Positions 18,220 through 48,196 of a DNA stretch of 64,000 bases are shown piece after piece. How positions within the stretch are numbered: the first letter of the stretch is position 1; every line of letters starts with the position of its first letter. The position numbers and the translations under genes are program-made. The notes beneath the pieces are model-generated. The model saw only the letters and a list, made by a program, of their open reading frames with translations, was not told the origin of the DNA and did no database searches. The DNA comes from Desulfocurvibacter africanus subsp. africanus DSM 2603 (GTDB lineage Bacteria > Desulfobacterota > Desulfovibrionia > Desulfovibrionales > Desulfovibrionaceae): assembly GCF_000422545.1 (NCBI RefSeq), contig NZ_KE383874.1, positions 181,214-245,213 of the forward strand, given 5' to 3'.

Positions 18220-19686
18220 ATGTCCATAACAACTTTGATCAAATCCATTCAGGACATCATGCGCAAGGATGTCGGCGTCGATGGCGACGCTCAGCGTATC
18301 AGTCAAATGGTCTGGCTGCTGTTTTTGAAGATATTCGACGACAAAGAGCAGGAATGGCAGCTCACCATGCGGGGGTATAAATCTCCACTGCAGAGCCGTT
18401 TCCGCTGGTCCAACTGGGCCAAGAATCCAGAGGGCATCACTGGCGAGGAACTGATTGACTTCGTCAACAACGACCTGTTCCCAGCCCTGAAGAAACTCGC
18501 CACCGCTGCCGGCATTTCTCCCCAAGGCAAGGTGGTCGGGGCTGTATTTGAAGATGCCTATAACTACATGAAGTCCGGAACCCTGCTGCGTCAGGTAATC
18601 AATATCATTGAAGAGGATGTGGACTTTAACTCCTCCTCGGACCGCCACCTATTCAACGATATTTACGAGAAGATTCTCGCCGATCTGCAATCCGCTGGAA
18701 ACGCAGGCGAATACTTCACCCCTCGGGCCGTTACTCAGTTCATGGTGGATATGCTGAATCCTCAGCTGGGTGAATCCATCCTCGACCCTGCCTGCGGTAC
18801 TGGCGGCTTTCTCACCTGCGCTATCGAACATTTGAAGAAGCAGGTCAAAAATCCTGACGATCTGAGGACCCTGCAAGCCTGCATCCATGGTGTGGAAAAA
18901 AAATCCCTGCCGCATATGTTGGCAGTCACCAATATGATGCTGCACGATATTGATGTCCCTACCAACATACGACACGATAATACCCTTAGCCGTCCCCTCA
19001 AGGATTACGGCCCAAGAGACCGCGTGGACATCATCATCACCAATCCTCCATTCGGCGGCATGGAAGAAGACGGTATCGAAAACAACTTCCCGCGCAAATA
19101 CCAGACCCGTGAGACCGCCGACCTGTTCATGGCGCTGATCATGCATCTTTTGAAGCACAATACTGGCCGCGCTGCCGTGGTGCTGCCTGACGGATTTCTG
19201 TTTGGCGAAGGCACCAAAACCAATATCAAACGTGAGTTGCTGGAAGAATTCAATCTGCACACCATCGTGCGCCTGCCCAAGGGAGTCTTCAGCCCCTATA
19301 CCGGCATTGCCACTAACATTCTGTTCATCGAGAAGGGAGAGCCGACAAAGGACGTCTGGTTCTTCGAACATCCCTATCCTGATGGCTATAAGTCCTACTC
19401 ACGCCGTAACCCGCTGACCATTGGCGAATTTGATCTGGAAAAAAGCTGGTGGGGCGGCGCTGAACGCAAAGGTCGTAAGACCACAGAACACGCCTGGAAA
19501 GGCTCGGCCAAAGAACTGGCCGAGCGCAATTACAATCTCGACTGCAAGAACCCGCACGAAGTGGAGGTCAACCACCGCGACCCGGAAGAGCTAATGACCG
19601 AGTACCAGCAGATCGTCCAACAACTAGAAGCTGCTCAGCAGGCGCTCAAGGCTGAACTGATGGCCTGCCTGGGAGGCAAGAAATGA
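18220..19686 (+). CDS. hsdM: Type I modification methyltransferase, M subunit
   Basis: 488 residues. After an N-terminal helical domain comes the N6-adenine methylase core: motif I DPACGTGGF at residues 189-197 (S-adenosylmethionine binding) and motif IV NPPFGG at 275-280 (catalytic NPPF). Length is typical for HsdM. It begins 24 nt after hsdR and overlaps hsdS by 4 nt (ATGA), so M and S are translationally coupled. It methylates the recognition site chosen by HsdS and is needed for both modification and restriction. Confidence 0.96.
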   Translation: MSITTLIKSIQDIMRKDVGVDGDAQRISQMVWLLFLKIFDDKEQEWQLTMRGYKSPLQSRFRWSNWAKNPEGITGEELIDFVNNDLFPALKKLATAAGISPQGKVVGAVFEDAYNYMKSGTLLRQVINIIEEDVDFNSSSDRHLFNDIYEKILADLQSAGNAGEYFTPRAVTQFMVDMLNPQLGESILDPACGTGGFLTCAIEHLKKQVKNPDDLRTLQACIHGVEKKSLPHMLAVTNMMLHDIDVPTNIRHDNTLSRPLKDYGPRDRVDIIITNPPFGGMEEDGIENNFPRKYQTRETADLFMALIMHLLKHNTGRAAVVLPDGFLFGEGTKTNIKRELLEEFNLHTIVRLPKGVFSPYTGIATNILFIEKGEPTKDVWFFEHPYPDGYKSYSRRNPLTIGEFDLEKSWWGGAERKGRKTTEHAWKGSAKELAERNYNLDCKNPHEVEVNHRDPEELMTEYQQIVQQLEAAQQALKAELMACLGGKK

Positions 19687-21404
19687 CCGAGGCTACCCGC
19701 AACCTGCTGGAACAGCACTTCGACACCGCCTTTGCCGCTCCCGACGGCATCGCCAAGCTGCGCGAGCTGATATTGAAGCTCGCCATCCAGGGCAAGCTGG
19801 TGGAGCAGAACCCCAACGATCCACTAGCCAGCGAACTGCTGAAAGAGATCGAAGCGGAAAAACAGCGGCTGGTGAAGACAGGCAAAATCAAGAAAGCCAC
19901 GCTACTGCCGCCCATAAAGCCGGAGGAATTACCCTATGAGCTGCCGCAGGGGTGGGAGTGGGTACGTATGGGGAACGCGATTTCATATATGGATGCTGGC
20001 TGGAGCCCAAAATGTGAAAACGAACCAGCAAAAGACAGTGAATGGGGTGTACTTAAAACGACAGCTGTGCAGACCTTACAGTTTTGGCCTCATGAAAATA
20101 AGGCCCTTCCCGCCAAGTTAGCCCCTCGCCCTGATGCTCAAGTTGAAGAAGACGACATATTGATTACTCGTGCCGGTCCCAAGAATCGAGTTGGAATCTG
20201 CTGCGTAGCGAAATCTGTCCGCCCACAGCTAATGCTTTCCGATAAAATTATACGACTTAAAATCCATAGAAATCTGATTCTCCCAGTTTATTGCGCCCTT
20301 GCTTTGAACACAGGATACGGAGCTGATCAAATTGAGAGAATGAAGTCGGGCATGGCAGATAGCCAAATGAACATCTCTCAAGACAAAGTGAAGCAAGTAA
20401 CGATTGCCCTCCCCCCTCTCCCCGAGCAACACCGCATTATCGCCAGGATCGATCAGTTGATGGCACGTTGCGACGAGGTGGAAAAGCTGCGCCAAAATAG
20501 GGAAGAGAAGAGGTTGGCCGTCCATGCCACTGCAATCAAGCAACTGCTCGACGCACCGGACGGCTCGACCTGGGGCTTTATCCAACAGCATTTCGGCGAA
20601 CTCTATACCGTCAAGGAGAACGTCGCCGAATTGCGCAAGGCCATTCTCCAACTCGCCGTCATGGGCCGCCTCGTCCCTCAGGACCCCAACGATCCGCCAG
20701 CCAGCGAACTGCTCAAAGAGATCGAAGTTGAAAAACAGCGGCTGGTGAAGGCAGGCAAGATCAAACAGCCCAAGCCCCTGCCGCCGATTAAGGCAGAGGA
20801 AGTGCCCTACCAACTGCCGCAGGGCTGGGAGTGGGTGAGGCTGGGTGAAGCGATGTTAAAAATTACTGACGGAACTCATCATTCACCGCCAAATAAAGAA
20901 ACAGGTGAATTCTTATATATTTCTGCAAAGAACATCAAAGACGATGGCGTGCTTCTTAGCAATGCGACGTATGTAACGAAAGAAATACATGAGGAAATAT
21001 TTTCAAGATGCAATCCTGAATACGGGAATATTTTGTACATTAAAGATGGCGCGACCACGGGGGTTGTCACTATCAACAACCTGAAAGATCCGTTTTCTAT
21101 GCTTTCCAGTGTTGCGCTGCTGAAGCAACCTCAGCAGGTGGACAATCGTTATCTCTTATTCACTCTAAGGTCACCATACTTCTATAAAGAAATGCGTGCT
21201 GAAATGATGGGGGTTGCCATCACCCGTGTTACCTTGAAAAAACTACAAGATGCGATTGTTCCTCTCCCTCCACTCCCCGAACAACACCGCATCGTCGCGA
21301 AGATCGACCAGTTGATGGCCCTGTGCGACTCGCTGGACCAGCAGATCGACGCTGCCACTAGTAAACAGACCGAACTGCTCAATGCCGTAATGGCACAGGT
21401 ATAG
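19683..21404 (+). CDS. hsdS: Type I specificity subunit, S subunit
   Basis: 573 residues with the usual two-target-domain layout and unusually clear internal duplication. Each half starts with a conserved block (LRELILKLAIQGKLVEQNPN and LRKAILQLAVMGRLVPQDPN), continues through NDPxASELLKEIExEKQRLVK and a PQGWEWVR motif, then a variable target-recognition domain (nt about 19970-20400 and 20845-21245), then PPLPEQHRI and a dimerising helix. The recognition domains are more AT-rich than the conserved blocks, as expected for exchangeable segments. The duplicated DNA could allow domain shuffling. It decides the methylation and restriction site. Confidence 0.95.
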   Translation: MTEATRNLLEQHFDTAFAAPDGIAKLRELILKLAIQGKLVEQNPNDPLASELLKEIEAEKQRLVKTGKIKKATLLPPIKPEELPYELPQGWEWVRMGNAISYMDAGWSPKCENEPAKDSEWGVLKTTAVQTLQFWPHENKALPAKLAPRPDAQVEEDDILITRAGPKNRVGICCVAKSVRPQLMLSDKIIRLKIHRNLILPVYCALALNTGYGADQIERMKSGMADSQMNISQDKVKQVTIALPPLPEQHRIIARIDQLMARCDEVEKLRQNREEKRLAVHATAIKQLLDAPDGSTWGFIQQHFGELYTVKENVAELRKAILQLAVMGRLVPQDPNDPPASELLKEIEVEKQRLVKAGKIKQPKPLPPIKAEEVPYQLPQGWEWVRLGEAMLKITDGTHHSPPNKETGEFLYISAKNIKDDGVLLSNATYVTKEIHEEIFSRCNPEYGNILYIKDGATTGVVTINNLKDPFSMLSSVALLKQPQQVDNRYLLFTLRSPYFYKEMRAEMMGVAITRVTLKKLQDAIVPLPPLPEQHRIVAKIDQLMALCDSLDQQIDAATSKQTELLNAVMAQV

Positions 21405-21413
21405 GAAGATGCC

Positions 21414-23291
21414 ATGCGTCTGAAATCATTATACATCAGCCAGTATAAAAACCTGACGGATTTCACTCTAAATTTTGACAGCAACAGCTTCATTGATGTC
21501 TTTGTTGGAAAAAATGGAACCGGTAAATCTAACCTATTTGAAGCTATTATCAAAATTTTTCAGCATCTATATGAATTTGATAACGGTAAAACAACCATCG
21601 ATTTCAATTATACTCTTAGCTACACAATCAACGACATAGAGACTAGTTTAGAATGGACTAATGGCGGATTAACAATCAATGGCAACGAACGTAAAACTAT
21701 CGGCAACACGCCACTACCAGACAACGTCTTAATCTACTACTCTGGGCATAATGATACAATAACAGAATTAGTGAAAAGATATGAAGAAGAATTCAGAAAG
21801 CGAATAAAAGATGCTGAATTCAGCGAAAGCCGCCCTTTCATCGGAATTAGTCGAGAATATAAAGATATGCTTTTATCTTTTTTTCTGATGCAACCAGGAA
21901 CAAATATAGCAAGAGAGTGCCTTTGCAAAAAACTGGGCATTGAGAATGTATCGTCTAATGTTATTATGGTACTTCAGCGGCCAATTTTTGCAAAAAAGAA
22001 CCGCAAAATCGAAGACTTCGATCCTACAACGCATTTCTGGGGCGCCGCAGGCATTACTCGCCACTTTTTGGACAAATTAGTCAATTGCGTTAAAGGTGAG
22101 TTTAATCATAGTACTTTATACGACAAAGCAAAAGGATTCTATCAAATACCAATAAACCTTGAGCTCTTTCGAAAACAATTTGCCAAGGATAATCTAATAG
22201 ATGTTTTTCGCCAGTTCGACAATTTGAAAACCTTAGGCATGCTGACACTGATTTCAGTACCAGTCCGACTAACCAATGGTCTAGATGCATCTATAGTTCA
22301 CTTTAGTGATGGACAATTTCAATCCGTTTACATCTATTCAATTATCGAATTATTTAAGAACAGTAATTGCATTACACTGCTAGATGAACCAGATGCATTT
22401 TTGCATCCTGAATGGCAGTTTGAGTTCCTAACACAGATATTTAGCATTACGGAGGCAGCCGCTAAAAGCAACCACGTGCTGATGACTAGCCACAGCGCTG
22501 CGACTCTTTGCTGTTTTGAGACACTTCACCTTAATCTTTTTCAAATTGAAAACTCCAAAGTATGTTGTTCCAAACGCTCAAAGAAGGAAGTTATCAATGA
22601 GCTTTCAAATAGCTTTATTCAGTACGCAGAGGACGAAAGTAAATTACTCATCGATAACGTGATCAGATCTTCTCAAAAACCAATATTATTTGTTGAGGGA
22701 CTATCTGATGTTTTTATTCTAAACACAGCCTACATGAAGCTCTTTCCTAGAGAAGATATACCGATACTGGTTCAAGATGCTTTTAGCCGAGGCTTCCTTA
22801 AATCACTATTTGGCCGTAGAGATATTTTTGATACATATCCTCATAAACATTTCTTTGCGCTTTTTGATTTTGACGATGCTTATGACGACTGGAGAGGACT
22901 AGGAGGGGAATATATAACAACAGAAATTGAAATGGGACTTTGCAAAAAACTCACGGATAAGAATGCTCATACGCTTCTTCTGCCAATTCCAAACAATCAA
23001 TTACGAGCTCAGGTCTGGGATGAAGCTAACCCAATTGAAAAGATAAAACCTAAGCCTTACTTTTGTATAGAGCACATTTTTTGGAGCGTTAGTAAACTAC
23101 ATCAATGGTTTTATGTTGATACTAAAACAGGTCTTGTGAAATTCAAAGGAGATAAGCACAAAGTAAAGTTTGCCAAAGATGTTGTACCAACGCTTGACGC
23201 AAATTCTTTTGAGCCATTTCGCCCAATGTTCAATCTTATCTTGGAAAAGTCAGGATTAATGACTCAACACATCACCAGCCCGACAAAATAA
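21414..23291 (+). CDS. OLD-like AAA ATPase with C-terminal TOPRIM-type nuclease domain
   Basis: 625 residues, starting 9 nt after hsdS. The N-terminus has MRLKSLYISQYKNLTDFTLN followed by Walker A GKNGTGKS (32-39). The ABC-type Walker B, LLDEPDAFLHPEW, places Asp324-Glu325, followed by a switch His in LMTSHSA. The C-terminal third has TOPRIM-like motifs: EGLSD (Glu428, Asp432) and DFDD (Asp485, Asp487). This ATPase-TOPRIM plan is that of OLD-family nucleases, used in several anti-phage systems. The gene is visibly more AT-rich than hsdRMS, suggesting separate acquisition. No UvrD-like helicase partner (as in Gabija) or separate TOPRIM partner (as in PARIS) follows, so it may be a class 1 OLD protein or an accessory of the type I system. 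Confidence 0.8.
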   Translation: MRLKSLYISQYKNLTDFTLNFDSNSFIDVFVGKNGTGKSNLFEAIIKIFQHLYEFDNGKTTIDFNYTLSYTINDIETSLEWTNGGLTINGNERKTIGNTPLPDNVLIYYSGHNDTITELVKRYEEEFRKRIKDAEFSESRPFIGISREYKDMLLSFFLMQPGTNIARECLCKKLGIENVSSNVIMVLQRPIFAKKNRKIEDFDPTTHFWGAAGITRHFLDKLVNCVKGEFNHSTLYDKAKGFYQIPINLELFRKQFAKDNLIDVFRQFDNLKTLGMLTLISVPVRLTNGLDASIVHFSDGQFQSVYIYSIIELFKNSNCITLLDEPDAFLHPEWQFEFLTQIFSITEAAAKSNHVLMTSHSAATLCCFETLHLNLFQIENSKVCCSKRSKKEVINELSNSFIQYAEDESKLLIDNVIRSSQKPILFVEGLSDVFILNTAYMKLFPREDIPILVQDAFSRGFLKSLFGRRDIFDTYPHKHFFALFDFDDAYDDWRGLGGEYITTEIEMGLCKKLTDKNAHTLLLPIPNNQLRAQVWDEANPIEKIKPKPYFCIEHIFWSVSKLHQWFYVDTKTGLVKFKGDKHKVKFAKDVVPTLDANSFEPFRPMFNLILEKSGLMTQHITSPTK

Positions 23292-30113: not shown

Positions 30114-30240
30114 GGCACAACCAGTTCACGCCCGACAATGTGGTCGAGTTCAGGAACTGCGCCTTTATCCACGAGGACGACCTCAGCGAAGAGCAGCGCA
30201 TGGCCCTGGCCCGAGAGACCAGGAAAACCGCTGCCTGGCC
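30114..30240 (+). pseudogene. Possible gene remnant downstream of lysE
   Basis: A frame without its own start reads HNQFTPDNVVEFRNCAF and IHEDDLSEEQRMALARETRK, which has the look of a real protein tail. It runs straight into the family 3 repeat. Probably the 3' end of a lost gene; no family recognised. Confidence 0.25.
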
Positions 30241-30342
30241 TAGCCCCGGCCGGACCTGGAGAGCGCTTCCCCGATCAGCAAAGACGAGCAGAGACGAGCA
30301 AAGCCGCCCGAGAGGCGGCTTTTTTGTTGCCGCGGGCGCGTG
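30232..30342 (+). repeat. Family 3 element with terminator hairpin
   Basis: Repeat of the type CCCCGGCCGGACCTGGAGAG, GATCAGCAAAGACGAGCAGA, then a terminator hairpin GCCGCC-CGAGA-GGCGGC (30303-30319) with TTTTTT. Other copies lie at 38655-38898 (interrupted), 43375-43484 and 48065-48196. Confidence 0.88.
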
Positions 30343-35023: not shown

Positions 35024-35067
35024 TGGAGCAGATTGCTTTTAGAGCATTTTGCTTTTGAAAATGCTCT
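35024..35067. repeat. Family 1 remnant: two ends joined
   Basis: Left end GGAGCAGATTGCTTTT is joined directly to AGAGCATTTTGCTTTTGAAA ending ATGCTCT. The whole hairpin core is gone. The terminal hairpin is inverted relative to full copies (loop GCTTTTG instead of CAAAAGC). Confidence 0.75.
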
Positions 35068-35082
35068 GAACCCGGAGACGCA

Positions 35083-37774: not shown

Positions 37775-38575
37775 ATGAACATGGAATCCGTGAAACTGGT
37801 TTATTTCTCACCGACCGGAACGACACAGGCGGTTGCCCGCTCCATTGCGCAGGGCATGAATCCGGGCAGCCTGGAAGCGATCGACATCACCAGGCCGGAG
37901 GCACGCAGGCAGCCGCTGCTGACCTCGGAAAACGAACTGCTCGTGGTCGCGGTCCCCGTGTACATGGGCAGGGTGCCGGCCCTGGTGACGGAATGGCTGA
38001 ATGCACTCCAGGCCCACGATACCCCCACGGTCTGCGTAGTGGTCTACGGCAATCGCGCCTATGAGGACGCCCTGCTCGAACTGAAAACCATCCTGACGCA
38101 ATGCGGGTGCATTCCCATTGCCTGCGCGGCATACATCGGGGAGCACTCGTTCTCCAGTTCCGAGACGCCGGTGGCCCAAGGCCGTCCCGACAAGGCTGAC
38201 TTGAGCCATGCACAGGCGTTCGGGCAGCGGATACGTGAGAAGCTGCAAGCCATTGCCTCGATTTCGCAAATCCCTGATGTACACGTGCCCGGCATTTATC
38301 CCTACACAAGAGATTCGAAGCTGTGGACCGTCGATTTCATCGCCGTGAATGATCAGTGCACGCACTGCGGCCTGTGCGCGGAGGTCTGCCCCACGGGCGC
38401 CGTCGACCCGCACGACAGTTCGCTGATCCAGCAGGAAATCTGCATCACCTGTTGCGCCTGCATCAAGAGCTGCCCCCAGAGCGCCCGAAGCATGAAGCCA
38501 AGCCCGGTGAAAGATGCCTCGATACGGCTGACTACCCTTTTCAAGGAACCCAAGCAGTCGGAATGCTTTTTATAG
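37775..38575 (+). CDS. Flavodoxin-ferredoxin fusion (EFR1 family)
   Basis: 266 residues. The N-terminal flavodoxin domain has the phosphate-binding loop FSPTGTTQAVARSIAQG (about residues 9-25) and VVAVPVYMGRVPALV. The C-terminus holds two 4Fe-4S clusters: CTHCGLCAEVCP from Cys195 and CITCCACIKSCP from Cys223. Known as EFR1 (EFhand-less ferrodoxin) type oxidoreductases of anaerobes. It should transfer electrons between an FMN and two iron-sulfur centres in the cytoplasm. It stands alone, flanked by elements; partner unknown. Confidence 0.9.
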   Translation: MNMESVKLVYFSPTGTTQAVARSIAQGMNPGSLEAIDITRPEARRQPLLTSENELLVVAVPVYMGRVPALVTEWLNALQAHDTPTVCVVVYGNRAYEDALLELKTILTQCGCIPIACAAYIGEHSFSSSETPVAQGRPDKADLSHAQAFGQRIREKLQAIASISQIPDVHVPGIYPYTRDSKLWTVDFIAVNDQCTHCGLCAEVCPTGAVDPHDSSLIQQEICITCCACIKSCPQSARSMKPSPVKDASIRLTTLFKEPKQSECFL

Positions 38576-38654
38576 CGCATTTTGCTTTTGAACATGCTTT
38601 TGACAGGCCAGGGACTCCAACCTGGCCAACAGGATCAGCCGGGTGGTCAGGCCA

Positions 38655-38898
38655 AGGCAGCAGCACTGCGCCTGGGCCCGGCCGGACCTAGAGCAGATTG
38701 CTTTTAAGACGCCCGCTCCGGCGTTGACGGCGCAAGTGAATTGCGCCTACGCCTACGCGGCGGCAAGCCATGCCGACGCATGGCTTTTAGAGCATTTTCA
38801 AAAGCAAAATGCTCTAAAAGCGCTGCCCAGATCTGCAAAGATCAGCCAAGACAAGCAAAACGAGCAAAGCCGCCCCTGAGGGCGGCTTTTTTGTTGCC
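38655..38898 (+). repeat. Family 3 element interrupted by a family 1 element
   Basis: Left part 38655-38689 (GCAGCAGCACTGCGCCTGGG, GGCCGGACC) and right part 38816-38898 (GCGCTGCCCAGATCTGCAAA and terminator GCCGCCC-CTGA-GGGCGGC plus TTTTTT) together make a family 3 copy. A full family 1 copy lies between them. Confidence 0.88.
38690..38815 (+). repeat. Family 1 element, full copy, nested
   Basis: AGAGCAGATTGCTTTTAAGA to AAAAGCAAAATGCTCT, with a TA at each flank (CTA before, TAAA-like after). All three hairpins intact. Inserted within a family 3 repeat. Confidence 0.93.
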
Positions 38899-39026
38899 GT
38901 GGGGCTGCTTTTGCCGGGAATCTCAACTTATGACTGGTCCTATTCCAGGCGAGGGTTACAATTCCATTCCTCACCGGCGGATGAGCACGGAGGGACATTC
39001 TATATGGCACCGCGCGCGCATGGCCT

Positions 39027-43374: not shown

Positions 43375-43484
43375 CCGGCCCAGGCCCGGCCGGACCTGAC
43401 GGGCGCTGCCCAGATCAGCCAAGACGAGCAGAGATCAGCAAAGACGAGCAAAGCCGCCCCTAAAGGCGGCTTTTTTGTTGCCGG
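43375..43484 (+). repeat. Family 3 element with terminator hairpin
   Basis: CCGGCCCAGGCCCGGCCGGA, CCAGATCAGCCAAGACGAGC, and the terminator GCCGCC-CCTAAA-GGCGGC (43453-43470) with TTTTTT. Confidence 0.88.
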
Positions 43485-44330: not shown

Positions 44331-46556
<2,226 letters not shown>

Positions 46557-46559
46557 GGC

Positions 46560-46666
46560 TAAAGCAGTTTGCATCTGGCCTGAAAGAGGGCGCGACCCTC
46601 TCTCAGACTCTCTCCCGCCAGGGAAATGATTTCCCTGGCCCCTCATTTGATTTGCAAAATGCTCTA
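46560..46666 (+). repeat. Family 2-like element downstream of katG
   Basis: TAAAGCAGTTTGCATCTGGC at the left, TTTGCAAAATGCTCTA at the right, with an internal GAGAG/CTCTC hairpin and CCAGGGAAAT/ATTTCCCTGG. It starts 4 bases after the katG stop. The core differs from the copies at 32854 and 34818 but resembles 55132-55276. Confidence 0.8.
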
Positions 46667-47787: not shown

Positions 47788-48096
47788 ATGCATGACAGTA
47801 CCTCCCCCATTCATCCTGGTGAGATTCTGAGCGAAGAGTTTTTGAAGCCCTTGAGCATCAGCATGAACCAGCTCAGCCGGGATCTGAACATCTCGGTCCA
47901 GCGCGTAAGCCAGATCGTACGCGGCAGGCGCGCCATCACGACTGATACAGCCATGCGCCTTGCTGCCTACTTCAAGACCAGTCCGGAATTCTGGCTCAAC
48001 CTCCAGATGCGCTACGACCTTGAACAGGCCAAGGACTCCAACCTGGCCGATAAGATCCGCACGGAAGTCAGGCCCAGGCAGCAGCACTGCGCCTAG
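47788..48096 (+). CDS. HigA/VapI-type XRE antitoxin, orphan
   Basis: 102 residues. HigA signature PIHPGEILSEEFLKPLSISM, the HTH NQLSRDLNISVQRVSQIVRG, then RAITTDTAMRLAAYFKTSPE and FWLNLQMRYDLE. In complete modules a HigB toxin precedes it; here a GNAT toxin gene does, 23 bases upstream. The C-terminus (RPRQQHCA) and stop are read from the family 3 repeat, so the native end may be replaced. It may be orphan, or part of the neighbouring operon as a regulator. Confidence 0.85.
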   Translation: MHDSTSPIHPGEILSEEFLKPLSISMNQLSRDLNISVQRVSQIVRGRRAITTDTAMRLAAYFKTSPEFWLNLQMRYDLEQAKDSNLADKIRTEVRPRQQHCA

Positions 48097-48196
48097 GCCC
48101 GGCCGGAGCTGCAGAGCGCTCCCCCTAGATCTGCAAAGATGAGTAAAGACGAGCAGAGACGAGCAAAGCCGCCCAAGAGGCGGCTTTTTGTTGCGT
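48065..48196 (+). repeat. Family 3 element with terminator hairpin
   Basis: GGCAGCAGCACTGCGCCTAG, GGCCGGAGCTGCAGAGCGC, GACGAGCAGAGACGAGC, and hairpin GCCGCC-CAAGA-GGCGGC (48168-48184) plus TTTTT. It overlaps the 3' end of the HigA-like gene and would terminate it. Confidence 0.88.

Follow-up and report, generated by a model that had tools for sequence, protein, structure and literature searches.

The window analysed here, a 64,000-nucleotide stretch of the Desulfocurvibacter africanus subsp. africanus DSM 2603 genome, carries an intact gene for a HigA-type antitoxin on the + strand (47788-48096, Pfam HTH_3), whose product shares up to 56% identity with annotated HigA antitoxins on plasmids. 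The 3′ end of this gene belongs to a short repeat, family 3, of which alignment gave three uninterrupted copies on the + strand, at 30237-30332, 43377-43483 and 48024-48194, the last being continuous with the higA 3′ end. Each family 3 copy has three to four imperfect 10-base repeats followed by an intrinsic terminator. A further copy at 38 kb is split in two. Its left half (38602-38690, + strand) matches 48024-48112 without gaps and consists of family 3 together with a higA relic, 89 bp of the gene end, which is truncated upstream beside a decayed end of another repeat, family 1 (38570-38598), and whose stop codon has changed from TAG to TGG. The right half (38815-38899, + strand), assigned by alignment to the paralogs, contains GCGCTGCCC, four units of the repeat GAYSAGCAAA (38830-38868, + strand; three or four in the paralogs) and the terminator GCCGCCC-CTGA-GGGCGGC-TTTTTT (38869-38892, + strand), the last two read directly from the sequence; the terminator is intact despite the insertion. 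Elsewhere in the window, at 18220-23291, a gene for an AAA ATPase with an AbiEii-like domain comes after type I restriction-modification genes (HsdM, HsdS).

The two halves are separated by a full family 1 copy of 124 bp (38691-38814, + strand), delimited by a TA on either side and by the loss of conservation outside YTA...TAR among 45 copies. The left TA (38689-38690) and the right TA (38815-38816) are the two target-site copies, and TA occupies the same positions in 37 and 38 of the 45 family 1 copies, respectively. The flanks of the inserted copy read GGCCCGGCCGGACC on the left and AAAGCGCTGCCCAGATC on the right. The initial annotation had proposed that a family 1 copy splits family 3 at 38690-38815 with the outer halves in register, and this was borne out, since the halves are contiguous in all three of the other copies (30237, 43377 and 48091), with a single-base gap. 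When the 38 kb site was aligned with and without the insert, removal of the insert together with one TA raised the local score against every paralog, from 64 to 109 for 48024-48194, from 57 to 69 for 43377-43483, and from 45 to 54 for 30237-30332. One gap base was left in the emptied-site alignment, inside a 5-nt linker, making the restored site 1 base shorter than the paralogs; this linker also varies between the uninterrupted family 3 copies (GGAGA, GACGG and GCAGA). A TA borders the junction on either side, which is what a target duplication should leave. In the family 3 copy at 48100, the letters are GGAGCT and not GGACCT.

Family 1 has terminal inverted repeats at both ends. The left one, GAGCAGATTGCTTTTAAG (38691-38708, + strand), shares 16 of 20 positions with the right end, TA included, and the right one (38797-38814) reads GAGCATTTTGCTTTTGAA on the - strand. 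The right end also forms a palindrome, AGAGCATTTT-CAAAAGC-AAAATGCTCT (38789-38815), as read from the sequence, and predicted folds gave a second internal hairpin, AAGCCATGC-CGAC-GCATGGCTT (38765-38786, + strand), which persists in other genera with a different sequence. The right-end palindrome was also observed alone, with the rest of the element missing, at 2234-2261, 35036-35070 and 38570-38598 of the window; the last of these is a degenerate second family 1 right end on the - strand (90% over 29 nt), immediately 5′ of the higA relic.

The pattern of the family 1 core (at most 2 mismatches) had 301 matches in the 4.4-Mb genome, compared to 4 for a reversed control pattern. Other copy statistics were taken from a 454-kb sample of the genome that includes the window, which contains 46 full copies in both orientations; a crude gene call based on ORFs and GC3 placed 44 of these between genes. 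When 45 copies were aligned, conservation extended to YTA at the left end and TAR at the right end, with random outer flanks, and the base to the left of TA was C or T in 44 of them. Identity to the family consensus is 94-100% for most copies and falls to 74% for older ones. At 124 bp the element is too short for a transposase gene; short, non-coding and bounded by terminal inverted repeats, it has the make-up of a MITE that targets TA. Rfam, searched at gathering and relaxed thresholds, contained no family matching family 1 or its core, and no description of the repeat was found in open-access literature searched under Desulfovibrio, the guessed lineage.

Among 67 joined flank pairs of family 1 copies that were checked for uninterrupted counterparts, two more insertions in the same genome (L011 and L053) had a clear empty counterpart. 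At L011, family 1 lies within another dispersed repeat, empty copies of which are found at L097:18807-18895 (85%), at 46562-46648 of the window (83%) and at other places; where the empty copies have TCTGAGAG, the rejoined site has TCTAAGAG at exactly the same length, and TCTRAGAG is kept at exact length against L097:18807-18895. At L053, family 1 sits inside the right-end loop of another family 1 copy, and the loop length is restored when the insert and one TA are taken out. The restoration of a site with a single TA is therefore exact in length at these two loci and differs by one base at 38690. Insertion of family 1 into older DNA, as claimed in the initial annotation, is accordingly supported by the emptied-site alignment, the TA flanks and these two further filled and empty pairs. 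The dispersed repeat hit at L011 (GGGAAATCATTTCCCTGGCGGGAGAGAGTCTGAGAG...) also occurs at L016:1517-1628 and L087:14395-14482, and its window copy lies directly 3′ of a catalase-peroxidase-like gene (44340-46556).

Alternatively, recombination among family 1 copies, involving either the 38570-38598 end or a copy elsewhere, could have brought together family 3 halves that stem from different events. The decayed second end lies just 90 bp upstream, precisely at the start of the higA homology, which counts for such an origin, as do seven flanking bases common to the inserted copy and a sister copy. C1:10427-10561 in the same genome shares 99% identity with the inserted copy, most of the remaining top matches in the list share 96-98%, and window 38687-38820 and C1:10427-10561 make up a two-member subfamily, GGCTTTTAGAGC. 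Outside the TA, this pair has 3 bases in common on the left (the ACC side) and 4 on the right (the AAAG side), a level reached in 7 of 2,211 family 1 copy pairs. The sharing is thus odd for that pair, yet inside the range over all pairs, and may reflect either chance or a moved flank. Against recombination, each family 3 half keeps its register with the three paralogs that lack an insert, the inserted copy is complete to both ends and flanked by TA like most other copies, and recombination would not restore a contiguous site. We therefore consider this origin very improbable.

The insertion can also be placed in relative time. Identity between the family 3 copy taken as query and its three counterparts is 80-86%, and the inserted family 1 copy is about 98.5% identical to its family consensus. 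Since the family 1 copy is much less diverged than the family 3 copies, the degree of divergence indicates that the insertion is later than the family 3 duplications.

Transposition of IS630 elements into TA with duplication of the TA is established (PMC2170065). In three relatives (G008, G025 and G015), we found IS630-family elements (DDE_3) of 988-1000 bp with TAGAGCATTTTAAYTTTKAA-like terminal repeats. The six ends of these elements match the family 1 right end at 15-17 of 20 positions and the left end at 12-15 of 20, with TAGAGCA ends in common, and a match of at least 15 of 20 to the family 1 right end was seen at only 2 of 15,925 control TA sites in the sampled own genome. Among the four DDE_3 matches of the own genome, no IS630 with matching ends was found. 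Only one of the four, L034, has recognisable ends; these are TAAAGCACTTTGCAATT and match family 1 at 12-15 of 20, and no delimited ends were obtained for the others (L035-L037). In L034 (contig C35, 1-987), an A8 run divides the transposase between two frames. L034 was rejected as the parent of family 1, because this IS630 occupies a TA within the left end of a family 1 copy, which makes family 1 a target as well. Since the ends of the own-genome IS630 are weaker, the acting transposase is a matter that we infer, as is the cut-and-paste chemistry; the enzyme that moved family 1 may be that of L034, may since have disappeared from the genome, or may be encoded in a repeat that was not assembled.

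That no matching IS630 was found in the own genome leaves some room for a transposase of another family. Family 1 might also be a palindrome of the REP type, mobilised by an enzyme of the RAYT type, and in either case the TA would just be part of a conserved end. The right end of family 1 is indeed a self-complementary hairpin, and solo copies of it are present. REP elements handled by RAYT enzymes are simple hairpins with neither terminal repeats nor target duplication; family 1 is two-ended and TA-flanked, with terminal inverted repeats at both ends, a single TA is restored at the two other loci with an empty counterpart, and relatives have IS630 ends that are closely similar, all of which leaves this explanation hardly likely. 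Just as little probability falls to the idea that family 3 is itself mobile and the locus a true nest of transposon in transposon. In its favour, the four copies resemble one another and each has variable repeats. Against it, searching the whole genome with the 43 kb copy gave four places only, all in the window, within 18 kb and on the + strand, the copies at 38 kb and 48 kb continue into higA coding sequence, and neither terminal repeats nor target duplication were seen. With four local copies, two of them attached to higA sequence, family 3 is a locally repeated gene-end and terminator segment rather than a mobile family. The initial description of an element nested in an element thus holds for family 1 as the mobile insert and fails for family 3.

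We consider, with a probability of roughly 90%, that family 1 is a non-autonomous MITE of the IS630/Tc1-mariner type which was mobilised in trans and joined to a TA in the decayed higA 3′ end, with duplication of that TA. What is observed is the insertion with its flanking TAs, the number of copies, the empty sites found independently and the similarity of the ends to IS630. Three observations count against this reading, namely that no IS630 with matching ends was found in the own genome, that the restored site falls one base short of the paralogs, and that C1:10427 has seven flanking bases in common with the inserted copy. As to the mechanism, an IS630-family transposase acting in trans would recognise the terminal inverted repeats of about 20 bp (TAGAGCA...), and a family 1 copy would be taken from another location in the genome. 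It would then be joined to a TA (consensus YTAR) that has the GGCCGGACC segment on one side and the GCGCT segment on the other in the decayed higA 3′ end, upstream of the intrinsic terminator of the relic, and gap repair would duplicate the TA.

The insertion event itself is of an ordinary kind, and family 1 belongs to the IS630-type MITE class of RUP and the Correia elements. RUP, the repeat unit of pneumococcus, is 107 bp long, has 108 copies and is thought to be mobilised by IS630-Spn1 (PMC2229807). It resembles family 1 in size, high copy number, intergenic sites, TA target, IS630-like ends and insertions into other repeats (PMC2229807). The partner IS of RUP resides in the same species, whereas the best-matching IS630 ends for family 1 are in related genera, and a covarying internal core is a feature of family 1 that differs from RUP; the two are of the same kind by description, with no claim of the same sequence family. 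The Correia/NEMIS elements of Neisseria share with family 1 the TA termini, the filled and empty sites and the stable stem-loops, and have terminal repeats of 24 bp, similar in length to those of family 1 (PMC2229807); they belong to a different lineage and are likened by description. The IS630 family, as represented by ISY100, likewise duplicates a TA target and has terminal repeats of about 24 bp (PMC2170065), but family 1, unlike it, has no transposase gene.

The inside of family 1 contains a structured core that is common to several genera (38707-38767, + strand; model R1, 83.8 bits, E 1e-16). Alignment of family 1 relatives from six genomes outlined an internal segment of about 62 nt with three nested helices, in which 94% of cells have standard pairs, compared to 22-43% with slid partners, and both sides have changed in 44 cells, compared to a shuffle mean of 15. 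Examples of covarying helices are GGCGCAA/TTGCGCC, GGCGGGA/TCCCGCC and GGCGGCA/TGCCGCC, and further ones are GGCGT/ACGCC and GGCAT/ATGCC as well as CCGC/GCGG and CCAC/GTGG. Of 199 genomes from the same bacterial family, 49 gave a match to a covariance model of the core, and these represent 13 of 44 genera. Most of the copies displayed were framed by family 1-like ends of the TAGAGCA type, and in the sampled own sequence every core match lay within family 1 copies or remnants. In seven genomes (G008, G075, G181, G203, G168, G061 and G189), the core is found in a different element.

These other elements include type B, which is about 125 bp long and combines the family 1 core with other ends (TGATGACAAA... 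and ...TTTGTCAACRGCCTC). Type B elements are flanked by exact or near-exact duplicates of a whole terminator-like palindrome of 18-33 nt, which is a different one at each site; such duplicates were observed in G008 (L125, L157, L063, L124 and L159), G075 (L161), G181 (L134) and G203 (L132 and L163), and are missing in some copies, e.g. L042 and L158. From the sequences, it looks as if the host terminator hairpin were duplicated on insertion. In addition, the same element of about 1.35 kb, an IS110-family (DEDD) element with its transposase (Pfam PF01548 and PF02371), lies within the second hairpin of three type B elements of G008 (L212, L213 and L214), and at L212 the terminator duplicates are still present outside.

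We tentatively regard the core as a structure-conserved module, with compensatory changes in at least 13 genera, that has travelled with two or more unrelated kinds of small mobile element, the TA-inserted IS630-type MITEs and the type B elements, a proposal whose chances we place slightly short of even. A strand test comparing G-U and A-C mispairs gave no clear bias when one doubtful pair was left out, and the core could therefore act as RNA or as DNA. Because the symmetry of palindromes may be kept by template switching, the covariation falls short of proof of a selected function.

The insertion at 38 kb is in itself of modest interest; it offers an example of MITE insertion at junction level with relative dating, and the mobility of family 1 accounts for the origin of many dispersed repeats in the window. 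The leads worth pursuing are the core, which has the wider reach, and the type B elements. If the proposal is true, the core would not be passive filler but would serve the elements or the host, and a structured motif riding different mobile elements across the bacterial family may have a role in mobility or in transcript stability.
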